DNA of 6,967 nucleotides. Source: Anaerolineae bacterium. Lineage in GTDB: Bacteria > Chloroflexota > Anaerolineae > B4-G1 > SLSP01. The position numbers were made by a program, and so were the translations under genes. Position 1 is the stretch's first letter, and every line of letters starts with the position of its first letter. The notes beneath the pieces were generated by a model that did no database searches, was not told the DNA's origin, and worked only from the letters and a program-made list of their open reading frames with translations. Below are positions 1 to 6,967 of the stretch, in pieces. Where the stretch lies: NCBI GenBank assembly GCA_016934645.1, contig JAFGSL010000013.1:1-6967 (forward strand), read 5' to 3'.

Positions 1-493
1 AGACGAGCGTGCGGTACTTTTCCGCCAGATCGAAGGCCAGGCCCATCATGTCAATCAGTTCCTGGACATTGGCAGGAGCCAGGACGAGTGGGCGGAAGTC
101 ACCGTGCCCGGCGGTTTTGGTCATGAAGAAGTAATCACTCTGCGAGGGCTGGATGTTGCCCAATCCCGGCCCGCCGCGCATCATGTTGACGGCCACGACG
201 GGGACTTCGGAACCGGCAATGTAAGAGAAGCCTTCCGCCATCAGGCTGAAGCCGGGACCCGACGTAGACGTCATCACGCGTACGCCCGCGCAGGCCGCGC
301 CGTAGACCATATTGATAGCGGCGACTTCGCTTTCAGCCTGTAGGAAGACACGCCCCTCGTCGATCATCCGCTCGGAAAGGTGTTCCAGCGCCTCGCTCTG
401 CGGCGTGATGGGATATCCGAAGTAGGCTTGCACACCATACCGCACAGCCGCTTCGGCAAATGCAACATTGCCTTTGAGCAGTTCTTTGGTCAT
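1..493 (-). CDS. vorB: 2-oxoacid:ferredoxin oxidoreductase alpha subunit, N-terminal 164 residues (partial)
   Basis: This is the alpha (pyrimidine-binding) subunit of a CoA-dependent 2-oxoacid:ferredoxin oxidoreductase, a cytoplasmic TPP enzyme that converts a 2-oxoacid to acyl-CoA and passes electrons to ferredoxin. The gene runs off the left edge; 164 codons are visible. Family signatures in order are [12 protein letters not shown] near residue 26, [18 protein letters not shown] near 50, [14 protein letters not shown] near 76 and [18 protein letters not shown] near 104. This set is typical of VorB/KorA-type subunits and reads closest to the 3-methyl-2-oxobutanoate (branched-chain) type. The start is the ATG at 493, with GGAGG at 500-504 six bases upstream. 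It follows the ferredoxin subunit by 13 bases, the usual vorD-vorB order, so beta and gamma subunits are expected beyond the left edge. Substrate choice between 2-oxoisovalerate and 2-oxoglutarate is inferred from family resemblance. Confidence 0.93.
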
Positions 494-506
494 TGTGAGC
501 CTCCTT

Positions 507-776
507 CTATACTGCCGGTACGGCAACTGCCGCTTGTGCATTGACGCGCTGCGTTTGGCGCTTTTGGCGGTAAACGGTGAACACCACATCCGGGCAGATG
601 CGGGCACACGATGCACAGCCAATGCACTTTTCCGCATCGGTGACAACGACAGGATGGTAGCCCTTGGCGTTGAATGTGTCCTGCGATAGTACCAGGATAT
701 TGACAGGGCAGACGTTCGTACATAACCCACATCCCTTACAACGATCAATGTCGATAACGACGATGCCTTTTGCCAT
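507..776 (-). CDS. vorD: 2-oxoacid:ferredoxin oxidoreductase delta (2x[4Fe-4S] ferredoxin) subunit
   Basis: An 89-residue ferredoxin-type subunit that carries electrons from the TPP core of the 2-oxoacid oxidoreductase to external ferredoxin. Two complete CxxCxxCxxxCP motifs are visible, with cysteines at 13, 16, 19, 23 and at 51, 54, 57, 61, so two [4Fe-4S] clusters are expected. The opening [19 protein letters not shown] is typical of VorD/KorD subunits. A TTG at 782 would add two residues, but AGGAGG at 784-789 sits seven bases from the ATG at 776, so I choose 776. The last 20 or so residues after the second motif are a basic, then Ala/Val-rich tail. The gene lies 13 bases before the alpha subunit and 84 bases after the 422-aa gene, with a heptamer fold-back between. 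Confidence 0.92.
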
Positions 777-783
777 AAACAAG

Positions 784-789
784 CCTCCT
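784..789 (-). promoter_or_regulatory. Shine-Dalgarno site fixing the vorD start
   Basis: On the minus strand this reads AGGAGG, seven bases upstream of the ATG at 776. It favours that ATG over the in-frame TTG at 782, which would begin one base after the site. Confidence 0.85.
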
Positions 790-794
790 TTTAG

Positions 795-864
795 GTAGAC
801 GGTAGACAGTAAACGGGGATGTAGTCTCCTCCCCCCTGTCTACTGTTTACCGTTTACTGTCTAC
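795..864. repeat. Heptamer array forming a fold-back between the 422-aa gene and vorD
   Basis: Three direct 7-bp units of the form GTARACR occupy 795-815 and are followed by a G run. After a short spacer comes a C run and four units of the complementary form YGTYTAC at 837-864. The two arms can pair, giving a long hairpin in the RNA, with imperfections mainly at the variable positions of each unit. The TAG stop of the 422-aa gene (861-863) lies inside the last unit. No U-tract follows in the direction of transcription, so a standard intrinsic terminator is unlikely; an mRNA processing or stability element is possible. Confidence 0.85.
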
Positions 865-2129
865 TTATCATGAAGATTCTGCGCCGCGACAAAGGACAGT
901 CCGTGCTCAGTAAGTGCCCAGGCTGTACGGTTCGTCGCTTCCATTTTGTCCAGGAAGTTGAGCAGCAGATTATCCCAATCCCCGGCAGCGATGATCTCAT
1001 CTTTGTCACGGAAGTAATCGAGGATGTCTGATGGGTGCTCGCGCGTTGGGTCGATCTCCGGGCCTGCGCCCTCGTGCTTGGCGGAGATATTGGCGACGTG
1101 GTCGGCAATGGCGATCAGCTCATCACGTCGGTCATACGGCTGGCGCACGATGCTCTTCCACGTCTCGGTGATGTGGTGCTCGAAGCGCACCACGTCCTCG
1201 AAACCGAGCGCTTTGCGGAACTGCGCCGTGATCTCCATCGTCTCGTTGTTGATCGAGTTGCTCCAGTTGAAGCCGATCAACGGTGAGGTACCGTCATCGC
1301 GGGCAAACAGCTTCGCGCCGATCAACGTCCAAAGAGCGGCATAGGGATTGTCGTTGCCCATATACACCGAAATCTTGAACTCGATGTCCACTCCCAGACG
1401 GTAGAGCAGATAACCAAGCAGCACCGTACCGGGATTGATATTCAACACCTGGCGCACCCCGTACTCGGTGTAGTAGTAGAGGAACTCATCGAGCCATTGG
1501 AGCGCGTGCGTGTTAGGCTGTCCCACGCCGCCGAAGTAGCCGGTGATTGTCTCCGGGCCACCCAGGTGGATGTTGGAACCGTCGGTGCCTTTGGTGTCCA
1601 GCGTCTCCACGTAGCTCGCGCCAATGATGTTCATCGCGGCGGCGAAGGCGGGCAGGTCGCCGTCGGCCTCCTGTTCCTTCATCTTGCGCACGCGGATGAA
1701 GCGCCCCGGCATCAGTGTCCCCTGGGCGATGGCGCGCGTAGCAGCCTCGATGACATAGGGGAAGTACTGGCACGCGCTCACTTCCAGCGTGACGGCGTAA
1801 TCGTCGCTAAACGCAATTATGTCGGCCTGTGCACCGAGGACCTTGCGCCGGTAATCGGCAATGCTGATGAAGGCGTGTTTATCGCGCTGCGCCTGCAGCC
1901 ATTCAAGATCAGCCAGATATTCGGGTCGAACGGTCTTGACACGCTCAAGCAGCACGGGGAGCTGGCGCGCCAGATGCGCCTTGTGGTTGATTTCTTCCGG
2001 TGTACCGTACTTGGCGACGACCGCGAGGAAATCGTTGACCACGCGCGTATCGGGGTTGAGGAGAATCGCGTTAAGGTCGTCGAGGCGCGCTGCCGGAATT
2101 TTAAGCAAATATCGTAAATCCTCGCTCAT
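861..2129 (-). CDS. Uncharacterised 422-aa protein in a 2-oxoacid oxidoreductase gene cluster
   Basis: I do not recognise this family. The protein appears soluble, with no signal peptide or membrane segment, a single cysteine (about residue 120), and alternating hydrophobic strands and helices that would fit a TIM-barrel-like alpha/beta fold; this fold call is only inference. Stretches that look like active-site or substrate loops are LDTKGTDGSNIHLGGPETI (177-195), NINPGT (230-235), ISVYMGNDNP (253-262), FNWSNSINNET (287-297), RFEHHITET (315-323) and SAKHEG (349-354). No DxHxxG cobalamin motif, CxxxCxxC radical-SAM motif or P-loop is visible. The start is chosen at the ATG at 2129, because AAAGGAGG lies six bases upstream; a longer reading from 2192 would begin inside a repeat element. 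It precedes vorD-vorB, so a role in supplying, rearranging or handling the 2-oxoacid or its product is a contextual guess. Confidence 0.85.
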   Translation of the reverse strand: MSEDLRYLLKIPAARLDDLNAILLNPDTRVVNDFLAVVAKYGTPEEINHKAHLARQLPVLLERVKTVRPEYLADLEWLQAQRDKHAFISIADYRRKVLGAQADIIAFSDDYAVTLEVSACQYFPYVIEAATRAIAQGTLMPGRFIRVRKMKEQEADGDLPAFAAAMNIIGASYVETLDTKGTDGSNIHLGGPETITGYFGGVGQPNTHALQWLDEFLYYYTEYGVRQVLNINPGTVLLGYLLYRLGVDIEFKISVYMGNDNPYAALWTLIGAKLFARDDGTSPLIGFNWSNSINNETMEITAQFRKALGFEDVVRFEHHITETWKSIVRQPYDRRDELIAIADHVANISAKHEGAGPEIDPTREHPSDILDYFRDKDEIIAAGDWDNLLLNFLDKMEATNRTAWALTEHGLSFVAAQNLHDK

Positions 2130-2135
2130 CCGAAA

Positions 2136-2143
2136 CCTCCTTT
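2136..2143 (-). promoter_or_regulatory. Shine-Dalgarno site fixing the start of the 422-aa gene
   Basis: The minus strand reads AAAGGAGG, six bases before the ATG at 2129. It is near-ideal and lies within the longer open frame that begins at 2192, so the extra 21 residues of that frame are probably not translated. Confidence 0.88.
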
Positions 2144-2157
2144 CATAGTCAGATAGT

Positions 2158-2451
2158 CTCAGTAGATCGGAAATTGGGTTCGTAGTAAACACTTATGAAG
2201 TTTAAGAAAATAATCTGGTAATGAACCATTCACACTATCAACCGTCATTCCGAAGCCCCGTTCCTCAATTGCGAGCAACCAGATAGCTCAAGAAGGGGCT
2301 GAGGAATCTGTAGCGCACGAGATTCCTCACTCCGCTACGCTCCGTTCGGAATGACGCGGATGAGCAACACTACCAGATTTAATTTTTAAACTTCATAGCG
2401 GTCTCTGGACAACTAAAGCCGTTACTACGAACAAAGATCACATCTACTGAG
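2158..2451. mobile_element. MITE-like imperfect fold-back element filling the panB/422-aa gene gap
   Basis: The 354-base space between the 422-aa gene and the panB-type gene is mostly one large imperfect inverted repeat. Matching inverted blocks, from outside inward, are 2158-2167 with 2442-2451 (10 bp), 2178-2188 with 2422-2432 (11 bp), 2194-2204 with 2387-2397 (11 bp), 2212-2220 with 2371-2379 (9 bp) and 2244-2254 with 2345-2355 (11 bp). The blocks keep their order; the right arm has about 19 extra bases between the second and third. No transposase frame is present. This resembles a decayed MITE or a large REP-type element. The outer end lies about 15 bases from the SD of the next gene, so it forms most of that gene's leader. 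I could not identify a clear target-site duplication. Confidence 0.6.
2244..2355. repeat. Inner palindromic repeat with GTCATTCCGAA ends
   Basis: The core of the fold-back has 11-bp inverted ends (GTCATTCCGAA and its complement). Inside are two further stems: AGCCCC at 2254-2259 with GGGGCT at 2295-2300, and GAGGAATCT at 2301-2309 with AGATTCCTC at 2320-2328. Dispersed repeats with GTCATTC-type ends and GAGGAATCT cores are familiar in many bacterial genomes, so this may be a separate repeat nested in the larger element. Confidence 0.65.
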
Positions 2452-2483
2452 TCTGATAGTCATTTTCGTCCAACTGTCGGTGA

Positions 2484-3404
2484 TCAAAAACCACGGTGAG
2501 ACTCTCTCTCTCTCCTGTAATTCTTCTCCCGATCCCAATCCTTGTCTATTCCTGGCATAAGCCTACATAGCTCTTCATATTCCTCATCTTTAATGGTGAA
2601 ATAGTTCTCAGGTTGTGGGAATGTGTGGTCGGTGACTTCCTGGACATAACCCTTCAGGCCGTTGAGGATGACCTCGCCCGCGTTCCCAAAGACTTTCGCC
2701 ATGCGCGGCTTGAACTTGGGGTACAGACCGAACATGTCGTGGTAGATCAGCAATTGTCCGTGGGCGTGGGGACCGGATCCCAGGCTGATGATGAAGCAGT
2801 CCTTCACGGCCTCGGTGATGATCTTGCAAACCCGGTCGGGAACCATCTCCAGCAGGATGGCGAACACGCCAGCCGCTTCGAGCGCCTTGGCATCGTCGAT
2901 GATCTTCTTGGCCTGCAACGCGCTGCGCCCCTGAACGCGAAATCCACCGAGCGCGCTGGCGCTTTGTGGCGTCAGGCCCAGATGGCCCATCACCGGGATG
3001 CCCGATGCGATGATGCCTTTGACGCGATCAGCCATCTCCGCACCGCCCTCGAGCTTGATGCAGTCGGTGCTGGCCTCGGCCATGAAGCGCCCCGCGTTGC
3101 GAATCGCCGTCTCGACGCTGGGCTGGTAGCTCATGTAGGGCATATCACCAACGAGCCAGGCAGTAGGCGCGCCACGACGCACGGCCTGCGTGTGGCGGAT
3201 CATGTCGTCCATCGTCGCGGGCAACGTGCTGTCGTAGCCGAGCATCGTCATCGCCAAACTATCGCCGACGAGGATCATGTCGATCCCGGCTTCCTCCTGG
3301 AAATAGGCGGTGGGATAGTCGTAGCAAGTCAGCATCGTGATCGGTTCGTGGTTGGCGACCTTCTGAAACAACTTCGGTAACGTGATTTTCTTGCGATCAG
3401 CCAT
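2484..3404 (-). CDS. panB: PanB-family 3-methyl-2-oxobutanoate hydroxymethyltransferase
   Basis: A 306-residue member of the ketopantoate hydroxymethyltransferase family, cytoplasmic TIM-barrel enzymes that transfer a C1 unit from 5,10-methylene-tetrahydrofolate to 2-oxoisovalerate in pantothenate/CoA synthesis. The family core is clear: ILVGDSLAMTMLGYDSTLP (44-62), VRRGAP (75-80), CIKLEGG (115-121), GHLGLTPQS (140-148) and LLEMVP (184-189). Residues matching the metal, substrate and catalytic positions are D48, S49, D87, K117, E119, H141 and E186. The usual IGIGAG segment is replaced by SLGSGPHAHGQ (207-217), and about 40 extra C-terminal residues follow, ending in a charged tail encoded partly by a CT/GA dinucleotide run. 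E. coli PanB has 264 residues. GGAGG at 3413-3417 lies eight bases before the ATG. No panC or panD neighbour is seen; the neighbours are a Na+ pump and a 2-oxoacid oxidoreductase. It could be the housekeeping enzyme or a paralogue with another 2-oxoacid substrate. Confidence 0.92.
   Translation of the reverse strand: MADRKKITLPKLFQKVANHEPITMLTCYDYPTAYFQEEAGIDMILVGDSLAMTMLGYDSTLPATMDDMIRHTQAVRRGAPTAWLVGDMPYMSYQPSVETAIRNAGRFMAEASTDCIKLEGGAEMADRVKGIIASGIPVMGHLGLTPQSASALGGFRVQGRSALQAKKIIDDAKALEAAGVFAILLEMVPDRVCKIITEAVKDCFIISLGSGPHAHGQLLIYHDMFGLYPKFKPRMAKVFGNAGEVILNGLKGYVQEVTDHTFPQPENYFTIKDEEYEELCRLMPGIDKDWDREKNYRRERESHRGF
2502..2514. repeat. CT/GA dinucleotide run within the 3' end of panB
   Basis: Six CT units plus one C on the plus strand encode the Arg/Glu-rich end of the PanB-family protein. 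It is a short simple repeat that could change the last few residues if it slipped. Confidence 0.8.
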
Positions 3405-3431
3405 TTTTTAACCCTCCAAAGTAATTGTTGG

Positions 3432-3488
3432 GTAGACGGTAGACAGTAGACGGGGTTTCTCTCCCCCTGTCTACCGTCTACTGTCTAC
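3432..3488. repeat. Heptamer fold-back between mmdB and panB
   Basis: Three GTAGACR units at 3432-3452 plus a G run face a C run and three YGTCTAC units at 3468-3488 across a short pyrimidine-rich loop. This gives a stem of about 25 bp whose imperfections fall at the last base of each heptamer. It fills nearly all of the 86-base gap, two bases after the mmdB stop. The following leader keeps a good SD for panB and has no U-tract, so the hairpin more likely affects message processing or 3'-end stability than fully terminates transcription. Confidence 0.9.
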
Positions 3489-3490
3489 TT

Positions 3491-4627
3491 CTATCCTCCT
3501 ACTAGCGGGATAACGAGCGTGAGCAGGACACCGCCTGCAATCACCGATCCCAACTGCCCGGCGGTGTTCGCACCCATCGCGTGCATCAGCACGAAGTTGG
3601 AGAAATCATCCTCGTGCGCAACCTTCTGCACCAGGCGGCCCGCCATCGGAAAGGCGCTGATGCCCGCCGCGCCGATCAACGGGTTGATCTTCTTGCCGGA
3701 GAGCACGTAGAGCAGTTTGCCGAAACCGATACCTGCCGCCGTATCCAATCCAAACGCGAACAATCCCAGAACCAGGATTTTGAGCGTGTCCAGGTTGAGA
3801 AAACTCTGCGCCGTCATCGTGCTGCCGACCACCAATCCCAAGAAGAGTGTCGAAACGTTGATGATCTCATTCTCCGAAGCTTTGGTCAGCCGTTCCACAA
3901 CGCGGGATTCCTTGAGCAGGTTGCCCAGCATCAGCGAGGCAATCAACGGCGCGGCCTGCGGCACGAGGATACCCACCGCAATCGTCACAATAATGGGGAA
4001 CAGCACCAGCGCCAGCTTGGAAACCGGGCGCGGGCTGTAATCCATTTTCGTCATCCGCTCCTCGCGGGTGGTGAGCAGGCGCATGATCGGCGGCTGGATG
4101 ATGGGGACGAGGCTCATGTACGAATAAGCGACGACGGAGATCACACCGAGCATATGCGGCGCGAGCTTCCCGGCAACGTAGATGCTGGTAGGCCCGTCAA
4201 TCGCGCCGATGATGCCGATGCTGGCGGCTTCATTCATCGGGAAGCCGAGCAGGATGGCGAGGATGAGCGTCCCGAAAATGCCAAACTGGCCCGCCGCGCC
4301 CATCAGCGCGAAGAGCGGTTGCGCCAGCAGCGGGCGAAAGTCCATCATCGCCCCCACACCGACGAAAATCAGCAGCGGGAATAACTCGTTATCGATACCG
4401 GCGCGCTTCAGCACGTACAACAAGCCGTTCTCAGCAGGGTCGATCATCGCCGAAAGTGGCAGGTTGGCGATGATGCACCCAATCCCGATCGGCAGCAGCA
4501 GCACCGGTTCGTATTCCTTAGCAATCGCCAGATAGATCAGGATGCCGCCTATGGCCATCATCACAAGACTTTGCCACGAAACGGCTAACAGACCGGCGAT
4601 CAGGTTGTTCAAATCAATACCATTCAC
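3491..4627 (-). CDS. mmdB: Na+-translocating decarboxylase beta subunit (MmdB/OadB/GcdB family)
   Basis: A 378-residue polytopic inner-membrane protein that decarboxylates carboxybiotin and uses the energy to export Na+. Hydrophobic segments span nearly its whole length. The family signatures are intact: IGIIGAIDGPTSIY (137-150) carries D144, equivalent to the essential Asp203 of Klebsiella OadB. NPLIGAAGISAFPMAGR (315-331) carries N315, G319, S324 and R331, spaced exactly like Asn373, Gly377, Ser382 and Arg389 of OadB. The length matches the shorter MmdB/GcdB type. The start is GTG at 4627, with AGGAG six bases upstream. With the acyl-CoA type carboxyltransferase at the right edge it should belong to a methylmalonyl-CoA (or glutaconyl-CoA) decarboxylase and not to an oxaloacetate one. 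It is separated from the biotin carrier gene by the GNAT-like gene. Confidence 0.96.
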   Translation of the reverse strand: MNGIDLNNLIAGLLAVSWQSLVMMAIGGILIYLAIAKEYEPVLLLPIGIGCIIANLPLSAMIDPAENGLLYVLKRAGIDNELFPLLIFVGVGAMMDFRPLLAQPLFALMGAAGQFGIFGTLILAILLGFPMNEAASIGIIGAIDGPTSIYVAGKLAPHMLGVISVVAYSYMSLVPIIQPPIMRLLTTREERMTKMDYSPRPVSKLALVLFPIIVTIAVGILVPQAAPLIASLMLGNLLKESRVVERLTKASENEIINVSTLFLGLVVGSTMTAQSFLNLDTLKILVLGLFAFGLDTAAGIGFGKLLYVLSGKKINPLIGAAGISAFPMAGRLVQKVAHEDDFSNFVLMHAMGANTAGQLGSVIAGGVLLTLVIPLVGG

Positions 4628-4643
4628 AAATGACTCCTGAAAT

Positions 4644-4685
4644 AGTCCAAAGTCTCAAGCCGAAAGTCAAACGCCTGACGTCAAA
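4644..4685. repeat. Heptamer array (AGTCNAA-like) between the GNAT-like gene and mmdB
   Basis: Six adjacent 7-bp units of a degenerate AGTCNAA / CGNCNAA form fill the 53-base gap before the mmdB SD. The TGA stop of the GNAT-like gene (4681-4683) lies within the last unit. Unlike the fold-back arrays this one is direct only, and its sequence family is different. Confidence 0.7.
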
Positions 4686-5463
4686 CACCTTCTTTGAGGA
4701 CACAGCATATTCGATACATCGGGCGCTCGCGGACGAACCCCAATGTTTCGAGCAATTCCAAGATAGTTTCGTCTTGCTGTGCAATGATATAAAAGACCTT
4801 CATCTGTTCAGCGTGAGCCTTGACCAGTGCAGACACAATTGCCGCGATGTGCAAACGCTCGGAAATCGCTCTCGCCGCTATGACACTGCCAATCTGAACC
4901 ACACCGGGCAACCGCAGGTTGGTAACACCCATTGCCACCAACCGGTGACCCTCCCAGATGCCAAAGGCCGGACCTTGTTGAAGTGGATCCCGCGTGGCAA
5001 ACCGCAGTTCAATCTGCTCACTCTTCGCTAACGCCTGCATCGCCTGCAGATCGTTGTCGACCAGTTCAGTCGCCTGCCCTTCATCCAACACATCAGAATC
5101 GCCGCGGAACACCATCTGCCACTGTGCTTCTTCGCTAAGAACCTTGAAGGCTTGTTCCGCCACAGCGCGCTGCGCTTCATCGACCAGAAGCTCGATTTCG
5201 CTGTCTTGACCGATCAAAAATGTCGTGTAATTGGCTAACAGCTCCGCCGACTCGCCAATAAAGGCGAGATTCAGCCGCGGTACTCCGTGGCTGCTGGCAA
5301 CCGACATCGCAGGCGAGTGGGCAATATCGCACTCCGAGGCCAGCGTGGTCACACTGGCGACGAAGGTGTAATGTGCCAACGTCCAGTCGGGGTCGCGTGT
5401 TTGCGCCTCGATCTGGTTCGCTAGGTGCGACGAAAGTCGCTCAGCGTGGGGCATAGCCCGCAT
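4681..5463 (-). CDS. GNAT-like acetyltransferase-fold protein within the Na+ pump operon
   Basis: A 260-residue soluble protein whose C-terminal half (about 110-260) reads like a GCN5-related N-acetyltransferase domain. It shows a GIWEGHRLVAMGVTNLR strand pair (168-184), a central GSVIAAR strand (192-198), the following helix IVSALVKAHAEQ (209-220), a YIIAQ strand and the closing ETILELLETLGF (232-243). The acetyl-CoA pyrophosphate loop, normally R/QxxGxG/A, is replaced by SERLHIAA (201-208) with no glycine, so CoA binding or catalysis may be altered or lost. The N-terminal 110 residues are unrecognised. The start is the ATG at 5463: GGAG at 5470-5473 lies six bases upstream, and the biotin carrier stop TAA (5465-5467) ends one base before it, implying translational coupling. 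A TTG at 5475 is possible but lacks its own SD. Its role in the decarboxylase operon is unknown. Confidence 0.75.
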   Translation of the reverse strand: MRAMPHAERLSSHLANQIEAQTRDPDWTLAHYTFVASVTTLASECDIAHSPAMSVASSHGVPRLNLAFIGESAELLANYTTFLIGQDSEIELLVDEAQRAVAEQAFKVLSEEAQWQMVFRGDSDVLDEGQATELVDNDLQAMQALAKSEQIELRFATRDPLQQGPAFGIWEGHRLVAMGVTNLRLPGVVQIGSVIAARAISERLHIAAIVSALVKAHAEQMKVFYIIAQQDETILELLETLGFVRERPMYRICCVLKEGV

Positions 5464-5464
5464 A

Positions 5465-5947
5465 TTAATCTCCAATCATCATAAGAGGGGCGCCGTGTTG
5501 CACTTGCTGCCCAACGGTAACAAGGATTTTGCGAATCACGCCCGGCTGGTTCGCGCGGATGGGATTATTCATCTTCATCGCTTCCAGTACACATAACTCC
5601 TGCCCGTGCGTCACATGCTCACCTACGTTCACGGCGATGCTGACGACTGTCCCAGGAAGCGGTGCTTTGACCTCCACGACGGCAGCTTGTGGCAGCTCGT
5701 CCGGTATAGGCGCCGGTTGAACCTCAGGCGTGGTCACAGGCACGGGCGCAGCAACCGGCACAGGTACAGGAGCAGATGCCGGGACCGGAGCCGAGGCTGG
5801 AGCGGAAGCCGGAACTGTAGCTGGAGCAAAGGCGACATTGACTTCAATGACTTCGCCATCCACAACAGCACGGACAGGCCGTGCATACGGATCAAGGATT
5901 TCAACGGTGTACTGTTTTCCCTGAACGGTGACATAATAAACGGGCAT
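5465..5947 (-). CDS. mmdC: Biotin carrier protein of Na+-pumping decarboxylase
   Basis: A 160-residue biotinyl carrier that shuttles the carboxyl group from the carboxyltransferase to the membrane beta subunit. Residues 1-40 form the short conserved N-terminal segment (VTVQGKQYTVEILDP, then RAVVDGEVIEV). Residues about 41-88 are a Pro/Ala/Val-rich flexible linker. Residues 89-160 are a biotinyl domain, with the biotin-accepting K125 in EAMKM and a second half-motif around VGQQVQHG. The frame stays open upstream to an ATG at 6019, but those 24 residues would be encoded by heptamer repeat DNA; GGAGG at 5956-5960, eight bases from the ATG at 5947, fixes the start. The stop is followed after one base by the GNAT-like start. 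Confidence 0.95.
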   Translation of the reverse strand: MPVYYVTVQGKQYTVEILDPYARPVRAVVDGEVIEVNVAFAPATVPASAPASAPVPASAPVPVPVAAPVPVTTPEVQPAPIPDELPQAAVVEVKAPLPGTVVSIAVNVGEHVTHGQELCVLEAMKMNNPIRANQPGVIRKILVTVGQQVQHGAPLMMIGD

Positions 5948-5955
5948 GCTCAATT

Positions 5956-5960
5956 CCTCC
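5956..5960 (-). promoter_or_regulatory. Shine-Dalgarno site fixing the mmdC start
   Basis: The minus strand reads GGAGG, eight bases before the ATG at 5947. It separates the real coding start from an open but repeat-derived extension reaching 6019. Confidence 0.88.
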
Positions 5961-5971
5961 GAAATAACTTT

Positions 5972-6089
5972 GTGAACGGTAGACAGTAACCCGTAGACGG
6001 TAAACAGGGGAGAAGGCATTGTGCTTCAGGGGTCTATCCCTATTCGCGTCTACTGTATACTGTCGCGCGAATCTTCGCGCTCCGTCTAC
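5972..6089. repeat. Heptamer arrays with inverted partner between mmdD and mmdC
   Basis: Five 7-bp units related to GTAGACR lie at 5972-6006 and are followed by a G run. Complementary units (CGTCTAC, TGTATAC and a degenerate third) lie at 6047-6067, and an isolated CGTCTAC at 6083-6089. This is the same repeat family as the arrays at 795-864 and 3432-3488, but more decayed and with a longer centre. It fills most of the 147-base gap between the two pump subunit genes. Confidence 0.78.
6065..6080. repeat. GC-rich palindrome GCGCGAA/TTCGCGC
   Basis: Two perfect 7-base inverted arms around a 2-base centre, within the decayed heptamer region just after the mmdD stop. In RNA it would be a compact hairpin, without a following U-tract. 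Confidence 0.75.
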
Positions 6090-6094
6090 CCTCC

Positions 6095-6589
6095 CTACGT
6101 TCGTGCAAAACGCTGGCGTCGCGTGAGTTGTTCCCCACGCGCATGAGAGCTCCAGGGATCCGGCATCGTGATGACACTCGCCGGAGCGGATACAGCAGTG
6201 GCACCAGCACTAGCCGCTGCCACTGCCATAGCCACGGCTGCCGCGGCGGCACGATACCGGTCATCTGCCAGTGCGTGTGGCGCGCTATCTTCGAGCGCCA
6301 GGGCCAAGGCCACAGCCGCCGCTGCAGCGCGTTCCCGATCTTCATCTGCCTCAACCTCAGTGTTCGGCAGATTCGCGGCTGCGGCAAGATGCAGCACAAC
6401 GTCCGCAACCTGCGTGACGAGCGCCTCTTCGGGTGGTGGTTCTTCGGTTGCTGTCCTTTTACGCCGCGGTCTGTCGGTGATGAGGGCCGTCATCGCGTAC
6501 ATACCCAGGACGAGCAATCCCAATGCCCCAAACGTCATCCCCATCCCGATGAGGGTCAATACCAAAGCCTGATTCAATAAAGTTGTCAT
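6095..6589 (-). CDS. mmdD: Small membrane-anchored delta subunit (OadG/MmdD family)
   Basis: A 164-residue protein with the layout of OadG/MmdD subunits, which help assemble the decarboxylase and tie the carboxyltransferase to the membrane beta subunit. One N-terminal membrane helix lies at about residues 8-32 and contains GMGMTFGALGLLVLGM. A basic stretch (RPRRKR) and a Pro/Glu-rich linker follow, then Ala-rich helical segments and a polar C-terminus (WSSHARGEQLTRRQRF). The Ala-rich part is an internal duplication: EDRERAAAAAVALALA at 83-98 is echoed by DDRYRAAAAAVAMAVA at 109-124. The position between carboxyltransferase and biotin carrier genes fits the mmdA-D-C order. Unlike its neighbours it has no clear SD near the ATG at 6589; a heptamer array fills the upstream gap. 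Confidence 0.85.
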   Translation of the reverse strand: MTTLLNQALVLTLIGMGMTFGALGLLVLGMYAMTALITDRPRRKRTATEEPPPEEALVTQVADVVLHLAAAANLPNTEVEADEDRERAAAAAVALALALEDSAPHALADDRYRAAAAAVAMAVAAASAGATAVSAPASVITMPDPWSSHARGEQLTRRQRFART

Positions 6590-6593
6590 AGTC

Positions 6594-6621
6594 GGTGATT
6601 CGTAATTCGTGATTCGTAATT
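6594..6621. repeat. Heptamer array (CGTRATT)x4 between mmdA and mmdD
   Basis: Four adjacent 7-bp units, CGTRATT with the first unit starting GG, fill nearly the whole 33-base gap. The array ends two bases from the mmdA stop and begins four bases from the mmdD ATG, displacing any SD. It is a third sequence family, distinct from the GTAGACR and AGTCNAA arrays. Confidence 0.88.
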
Positions 6622-6622
6622 C

Positions 6623-6967
6623 CTACACCGGCATCACACCGTGCTTCTTGGGCGGCTTGGGACGCAGTTGCTCGCGCAGCATGCGTAGCGCCGCGATGAG
6701 CGTTGAACGGGTCTGTGCCGGTTCGATCACGTTGTCCAGGATGCCGCGTTCTGCCGCGTAGTACGGCGTGACGTGCGTCTCGCGGTACTCGGCTACCAGC
6801 GCTGCGCGCCGCTCGTCGGGATTGCCGTCCGCCGCAAGTTCCCGGCGATGGAGCACGTTGATCGCCGCCTCCGGTCCCATCACCGCGATCTCTGCCGACG
6901 GCCAGGCCAGATGCAGGTCCGCGCCAATGGCCTTGCTGCTCATTACGATGTATGCCCCACCGTAGCC
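6623..6967 (-). CDS. mmdA: Acyl-CoA carboxyltransferase subunit, C-terminal 115 residues (partial)
   Basis: This is the C-terminal end of a PccB/MmdA-type carboxyltransferase, which moves CO2 between an acyl-CoA (methylmalonyl-CoA to propionyl-CoA in decarboxylases) and biotin. The frame enters from the right edge already open. Visible family signatures are GYGGAYIVMSSKAIGADLHL, then AWPSAEIAVMGPEAAINVL, and the closing KPPKKHGVMPV, matching the characteristic PKKHGNIPL-type end of MmdA/PccB. Because the pump subunits follow directly, I assign it to the Na+-translocating decarboxylase alpha subunit and not to a stand-alone propionyl-CoA carboxylase. OadA-type transcarboxylases are unrelated to this sequence, which argues against an oxaloacetate decarboxylase. 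Glutaconyl-CoA remains a less likely substrate. Confidence 0.94.
   Translation of the reverse strand, partial: GYGGAYIVMSSKAIGADLHLAWPSAEIAVMGPEAAINVLHRRELAADGNPDERRAALVAEYRETHVTPYYAAERGILDNVIEPAQTRSTLIAALRMLREQLRPKPPKKHGVMPV

Follow-up and report, generated by a model that had tools for sequence, protein, structure and literature searches.

The window analysed here comprises positions 1 to 6,967 (6,967 nucleotides) of contig JAFGSL010000013.1 from the Anaerolineae bacterium assembly GCA_016934645.1, and it carries on its minus strand an orphan gene, hereafter gene X, preceded by a second, divergent member of the PanB family, hereafter PanB2. Gene X had originally been predicted, from the letters alone, as an unrecognised enzyme-like protein lying between a PanB-family gene and a 2-oxoacid oxidoreductase, and the predicted open reading frame (ORF) is exact (861-2129, minus strand, 422 amino acids (aa)), with the quoted motifs FNWSNSINNET and RFEHHITET and a third all present in the protein. 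The frame begins with an ATG at 2129, just downstream of a strong ribosome-binding site (AAAGGAGG), and ends with a stop at 861. The preferred start in the ORF listing is a GTG at 2192, but lengths of 420-430 aa for 117 of the 120 listed relatives agree with the ATG.

A protein search with X returned at least 8000 relatives (sequence clusters), all 8000 scored candidates lying at E<=1e-3, and among the 120 relatives listed none has a Pfam domain and none is named other than as "hypothetical protein". The Pfam scan of X gave no match at E<=1, that of 32 members gave matches at chance level (best 0.041 in 1/32 and 0.092 in 4/32), NCBIfam gave a single match of 14.5 bits, below its cut-off of 25, and the PDB sequence search gave nothing below E 0.35; the alignment of the family found no Pfam, NCBIfam or PDB sequence match either. 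X is a well conserved, unnamed family, its conservation far beyond chance, and the earlier description of it as unrecognised holds, no Pfam, NCBIfam or PDB sequence match exceeding the cut-offs. Viral contigs contained no relative of X, and the open-licence literature yielded, among the matches listed, no paper on the X family or on PanB2. A pattern search of public genomes gave 261 matches, of which 247 encode an X relative; the best 80 of these 247, which form the locus survey, are mostly from Anaerolineae or elsewhere in the Chloroflexota, and a few of their records bear the labels Cyanobacteria (Hydrococcus, Cyanosarcina), Spirochaetales, Acidobacteria, Krumholzibacteriia and Patescibacteria. 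X is not general within the draws from Chloroflexota (15 of 301 genomes) or Cyanobacteriota (1 of 146), each count including the genome on which the draw was centred. In one locus (L049, 1197-2519) X is broken into two ORFs, which may be an artefact of assembly or of a frameshift.

The AlphaFold2 model of X (predicted local distance difference test score (pLDDT) 89, predicted template modelling score 0.89) confidently predicts a TIM barrel, that is, a (beta/alpha)8 barrel with a helical N-terminal domain, whose strands would span residues 108-118, 143-149, 172-176, ~227-231, 250-253, 284-287, 315-321 and 348-352, DSSP assigning strand to two residues only at ~227-231. Barrels fill the VIA list for this model, and no solved structure stands out as a match to it. 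In an alignment of the window protein and 31 relatives, 69-91% identical, the three motifs hold invariant residues at D178, G181, D183, G184, N186 and H188, at N288, W289, N291, S292 and N295, and at E317, H318, H319 and I320. The conserved polar residues are placed at the strand ends of the predicted barrel, which agrees with the enzyme-like character and the TIM barrel that had been anticipated for the protein.

PanB is the commonest neighbour of X, found in 46 of the 76 loci with a picked X ORF, or in 46 of the 66 that have more than 1 kb upstream of X (any strand); it lies directly upstream on the same strand in 44 of the 76, with a gap of at most 500 bp in 42. Co-occurrence was counted in a draw of 298 genomes of the class, taking PanB2 at >=68% identity and leaving out four PanB rows at 58-59% identity and all lower ones, as well as a 68th X match (genome G557) that belongs to the family Y described below. 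X was present in 67 of the 298 genomes, PanB2 in 56 and both in 53, a Fisher p of 9.8e-42 that is not to be taken literally because the genomes are related and many assemblies are incomplete. Among the PanB2 copies, 45 of 57 lie within 1 kb of X (median gap 85). The genetic partnership of X and PanB2 is firm, and both the status of X as a family and the identity of its partner are solid.

PanB2 matches the PanB family (ketopantoate hydroxymethyltransferase, PF02548) over its full length (2484-3404), scoring 337.5 bits with PF02548 (cut-off 28.7) and 288.5 with the equivalog TIGR00222 (cut-off 207.55). The PanB motifs are common to nearly all of 53 PanB2 copies (VGDSL 53/53, KLEGG 51/53, GHLGLTP 53/53, GD(M/L)PYM 53/53, and the glutamate of the LE motif 53/53), and VGDSL, KLEGG and GHLGLTP are the catalytic and metal motifs of the enzyme. 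These two facts, the equivalog score and the retained motifs, are what would be expected if X served pantothenate or CoA synthesis, for example as an alternative ketopantoate reductase, with PanB2 as another ketopantoate-forming PanB. Against this stand 28 positions that differ between the 53 PanB2 and 14 canonical PanB sequences, each fixed at >=85% per group, several of them in the canonical GIGAG...CDGQ stretch, which is replaced in PanB2 (GIGAG becomes SLGSG, and CDGQ becomes AHGQ); this replacement leaves membership of the PanB family in place and makes the same substrate doubtful. Aligned to Escherichia coli PanB (1m3u), the window's PanB2 has L208, L218 and I220 in place of I202, I212 and V214. 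Positions 202 and 214 line the substrate side chain, and we infer from such sequence changes that PanB2 may use a changed 2-oxoacid. PanB2 is also an extra copy beside a canonical one. Paralogues were counted in 15 genomes with X, and all 12 Chloroflexota tested among them hold at least two PanB genes, one type scoring 388-407 bits and a second 313-343 bits, the second adjoining X in 10 of the 12, while the Spirochaetales record has a single PanB that scores like the second type only. Two cyanobacterial contigs (L059, L071) place an SDR-type dehydrogenase and a glycine C-acetyltransferase before X, the latter above cut-off in L059 and 83% identical in L071, and the X model is a barrel rather than a Rossmann-type reductase. 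A role for X in pantothenate synthesis is on this evidence unlikely. The window's PanB2, at 306 aa, exceeds the median of 288 in its relatives, its extra C-terminus (2484-2550) being derived in part from a CT-repeat.

The weak match of G557 to X (E 2.7e-4, 24% identity) belongs to a second unnamed family, Y, of 415 aa, whose named members come from Anaerolineae, Cloacimonetes/Cloacimonadota, Armatimonadetes and Phycisphaerae; it has no relative in the viral contigs. Comparison of the X and Y profiles by hhalign gave E 1.4e-8 and a probability of 95.5% over 372 columns, reversed controls giving E 0.17 and 0.41. Searched over 350 genomes, the Y profile matched the X genes of G020 (2.6e-8) and G273 (4.2e-7), whereas X genes elsewhere in the draw, for example in G014 and G027, gave no match. 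X and Y, at about 20% identity, share K-x-S, H, K-x-E and S-x-x-Q positions, and they form a proposed superfamily, the profile similarity along the chain exceeding the controls. Family Y occurs in 4 of 9 genomes of one order, and in 3 of 3 loci with room downstream it is followed, instead of by PanB2, by two tandem DHDPS-Fae fusions, in which a DHDPS-family aldolase is joined to a formaldehyde-activating enzyme (Fae) domain. All six fusions keep the motif G(L/I)KDSSG; the Fae histidine is kept only in the second fusion of each pair. No paper on such fusions appeared among the open-licence matches listed. In L231 both halves of the fusions pass their cut-offs (dapA and one_C_fae). DHDPS-type enzymes are class I aldolases, mostly using pyruvate, and Fae captures formaldehyde; thus such a fusion can achieve the same net reaction as a PanB-type enzyme, the transfer of a hydroxymethyl unit between a one-carbon (C1) carrier and a 2-oxoacid. 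The remote relative Y points to the same chemistry.

Our tentative preference, which we rate at close to an even chance, is that X represents an undescribed family of TIM-barrel enzymes that forms one short pathway with PanB2 and acts on its hydroxymethyl-2-oxoacid or on a linked amino acid, mainly because two homologous barrels, X and Y, adjoin two unrelated enzymes able to make such a transfer. The support for an action of X on a 2-oxoacid that PanB2 handles comes from gene context, and we infer the substrate, reaction type and direction of the step as follows. PanB2 would carry hydroxymethyl groups reversibly from 5,10-methylene-tetrahydrofolate to a 2-oxoacid; this would be one other than 2-oxoisovalerate, with pyruvate or 2-oxobutanoate the likeliest. 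X would be a lyase or isomerase working on the 4-hydroxy-2-oxoacid so formed or on the corresponding amino acid, to which an aminotransferase ties it; in the pyruvate case these would be 4-hydroxy-2-oxobutanoate (HOB) and homoserine. The putative active site would comprise Lys252 and Ser254 (strand 5), His319 (strand 7), Lys351 and Glu353 (strand 8), and Glu116 and Ser118 (strand 1). No cofactor site was recognisable in the X sequence.

The tight gene pairing, together with the correlation of X and PanB2 distances (46 pairs, r 0.49, reached by 0 of 2000 permutations, the species tree not being removed), would also suit a non-enzymatic X that serves as an assembly or regulatory partner of PanB2 and retains the barrel fold. 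However, the polar residues at the strand ends are invariant in 32/32 X sequences and the pattern recurs in Y (K-x-S, H and K-x-E of strands 5, 7 and 8 being invariant in 23/23), as expected of an active site, and X is found in genomes that lack PanB2, so that we regard a purely structural or regulatory role as quite improbable. More improbable still is a role for X as barrel subunit in a carbon-skeleton mutase that depends on cobalamin, in the manner of glutamate mutase E. That protein, MTHFR, CutC, 3-keto-5-aminohexanoate cleavage enzyme and D-tagatose 3-epimerase would share with X only its predicted barrel fold, with no sequence match to it in Pfam or PDB. Glutamate mutase E (PF06368), the one of these five taken into profile comparison, gave no Pfam match and an hhalign E of 0.28 against 8 sequences, the Neff of X being only 1.8, and MTHFR was absent from the Pfam matches of the 32 members at E<=10, X itself matching no family at E<=1. 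Nor was any profile kinship of X to PanB found. The idea put forward in the original prediction, in which X works on a 2-oxoacid or acyl-CoA of the neighbouring 2-oxoacid:ferredoxin oxidoreductase (VOR), is the least credible of all: the genes are adjacent in the window and in L001 and L029, but the oxidoreductase lies close to X on the same strand in just 2 of the 115 examined X-holding loci (some of them duplicates), both close kin of the window, and with its adjacency so confined such an action is unsupported. The survey of homologous neighbourhoods that had been proposed upheld the PanB-family gene as a widespread partner, and the vor genes as functional neighbours fell away. In a third locus, L195, the oxidoreductase is on the opposite strand, at 47% identity.

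Several observations weigh against the proposed X-PanB2 pathway. The co-occurrence test ignores kinship and the incompleteness of metagenome-assembled genomes. Of the 67 X genomes, 14 have no PanB2 match at >=68% identity (one of them, G652, carries an incomplete copy close to the end of a contig) and two cyanobacterial X genomes hold canonical PanB only, so PanB2 does not always accompany X. G654 and G672 contain a divergent X copy (61%) that is accompanied by a divergent PanB of its own, 45% identical to the window's, with a canonical-type SIGAG...CDGQ stretch and an aldehyde:ferredoxin oxidoreductase alongside; therefore X also pairs with a PanB that lacks the PanB2 signature. PanB2 is by a small margin the more conserved of the two over the 46 pairs (mean distance 0.239 vs 0.265 for X), and conservation was dropped as an argument for X. 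The conserved loop 179-199 has a pLDDT below 50. Since the aldolase half of the fusions passes the dapA cut-off, aspartate semialdehyde could take the place of formaldehyde as its second substrate. No neighbour of X names its substrate, and the homoserine and threonine genes near X are confined to single lineages. Threonine synthase (TIGR00260) was found in 80/80 genomes, 40 with X and 40 without, 77 of them above cut-off, and homoserine dehydrogenase (PF00742) in 18 of 20 X genomes, so X replaces neither, and both candidate roles, as a replacement threonine synthase and as a homoserine dehydrogenase bypass, were rejected. Finally, an X-PanB2 pathway leaves three kinds of neighbours unaccounted for, namely an ELFV (glutamate-type) dehydrogenase with CBS domains (18 X loci, up to 8 kb away), tyrosine-phenol-lyase/tryptophanase-type genes (0.04-3 kb from X on the same strand in L024, L046, L059 and L076, two of these four loci also holding an Lrp-type regulator), and a CoA-transferase pair (4 loci).

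A broader and less likely proposal is that X and Y constitute a new superfamily in a natural HOB pathway joining pyruvate, C1 units and homoserine/threonine, with PanB2 and the DHDPS-Fae fusions as unrelated solutions to C1 transfer. In the preferred X-PanB2 pathway, too, HOB would be the product from pyruvate, one transamination away from homoserine, which fits the scattered homoserine and threonine neighbours of X. These include the order X, aminotransferase, aspartate kinase/homoserine dehydrogenase and aspartate-semialdehyde dehydrogenase (the last named by reading) in L077, and PanB2, X, ELFV dehydrogenase and homoserine dehydrogenase in L078. In L136 the order is PanB2, X, class III aminotransferase and formyl-tetrahydrofolate deformylase, and in L191 a threonine-ammonia-lyase-type protein, below all cut-offs, overlaps the end of X. 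The SDR-type dehydrogenase beside cyanobacterial X is presumably threonine-dehydrogenase-like; it matches Pfam Epimerase, and its best NCBIfam match is D-erythronate dehydrogenase, below cut-off. Formate-tetrahydrofolate ligase (11) and FolD (7) occur on the other strand in X loci, up to 8 kb away. Of 13 fetched loci in which PanB2 stands apart from X or X is missing, 5 have an aminotransferase on the strand of PanB2 and at most 1 kb from it, which likewise speaks for the preferred pathway (L128 and L134, in which X is present and was lost in ORF picking, and the copy of G749 being left out). A MttB-like methyltransferase, below cut-off, directly follows PanB2 in L207 and lies about 2 kb away on the same strand in L209; the two loci (L207, 6489-10175; L209, 749-5174) carry PanB2, an aminotransferase and the MttB-like protein on one strand.

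In the available excerpts of the literature the HOB route is presented as a synthetic design and HOB is called non-natural (PMC6966089), the synthetic HOB cycle of Bouzon et al. (2017), as recounted in PMC6966089, combining aspartate kinase, aspartate-semialdehyde dehydrogenase, homoserine dehydrogenase and a transaminase with PanB, which serves as hydroxymethyltransferase on HOB, and related homoserine cycles use a HOB aldolase and an aminotransferase (PMC8879981; PMC8224422). Equivalents of all five enzymes of the cycle, as these excerpts describe it, were found beside X or PanB2 in different genomes, aspartate kinase, aspartate-semialdehyde dehydrogenase, homoserine dehydrogenase, aminotransferase and PanB2 being spread over L077, L078, L139, L140, L205, L207 and L209, and no single examined locus holds all parts of the route; the cycle so described has no counterpart of X. 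If the preferred X-PanB2 reading held, PanB would not be merely a vitamin enzyme, and a second PanB clade with a new barrel would make up a C1-to-2-oxoacid route spanning many Anaerolineae known mainly from metagenome assemblies. Engineers have built such routes in the HOB and homoserine designs; enzymes that nature has selected for a route of this kind would be of direct use. The pairing with PanB2 also means that two purified proteins would suffice to test the reaction of X.

A possible third family, Z, is unnamed, 317 aa long and represented by 1535 proteins at E<=1e-3, and lies within 2 kb of PanB2 or of the 58-59% PanB in 5 of 7 loci without X. Its profile comparison with X gave E 6.2e-4 and a probability of 28% with strands in register, reversed or unrelated controls reaching E 0.04-0.05 and none of the pairs compared giving a control below E 0.04, and that with Y gave E 0.35; the K-x-S, H and K-x-E residues are invariant in 21/21 Z sequences. 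Z occurs in 61 of the 298 genomes, in two score classes, and only 10 of the 61 hold PanB2, so its tie to the pathway is doubtful.

Table 1. Features of the window and of the comparison loci (positions are those of the window or of the locus named).
Feature	Location	Coordinates	Strand	Remark
Gene X, 422-aa orphan protein	Window	861-2129	-	Predicted helical N-terminal domain ~1-105 and (beta/alpha)8 barrel ~108-415
PanB2, second divergent PanB-family paralogue (PF02548)	Window	2484-3404	-	Conserved partner of X
2x[4Fe-4S] ferredoxin-type (VorD/KorD-like) protein, 89 aa	Window	507-776	-	
2-oxoacid:acceptor oxidoreductase alpha-type subunit	Window	2-493	-	Cut by window end; name by reading
Na+-pumping decarboxylase beta subunit (PF03977)	Window	3491-4627	-	Lineage-specific surroundings
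MITE (miniature inverted-repeat transposable element)-like inverted-repeat element	Window	2194-2397	.	Between X and PanB2; 30-nt arms, 83% complementary
Divergent X copy beside a third PanB type and an aldehyde:ferredoxin oxidoreductase	L215; L217	6242-10554; 5469-9573		
Tandem DHDPS-Fae fusions beside Y	L231; L232; L234	9870-13193; 3030-6251; 4937-8199		
Family Z	L212; L213; L236-L238	1160-2110; 9603-10553		Coordinates for L212 and L213

Other features of the window are listed in Table 1. A relative of the ferredoxin-type protein was found in only 2 fetched X/PanB2 loci (L029, L195), and sodium-pump decarboxylase genes only in L001, L002 and L029. Besides the element between X and PanB2, related intergenic repeats (GTAGACGGTAGACAGTAAACGGGG and complements) occupy three spacers of the window, at 791-866, 3428-3489 and 5968-6013. 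A 264-aa protein at 4681-5475, with no Pfam or NCBIfam match above cut-off, is also encoded in L001, L002 and L029.
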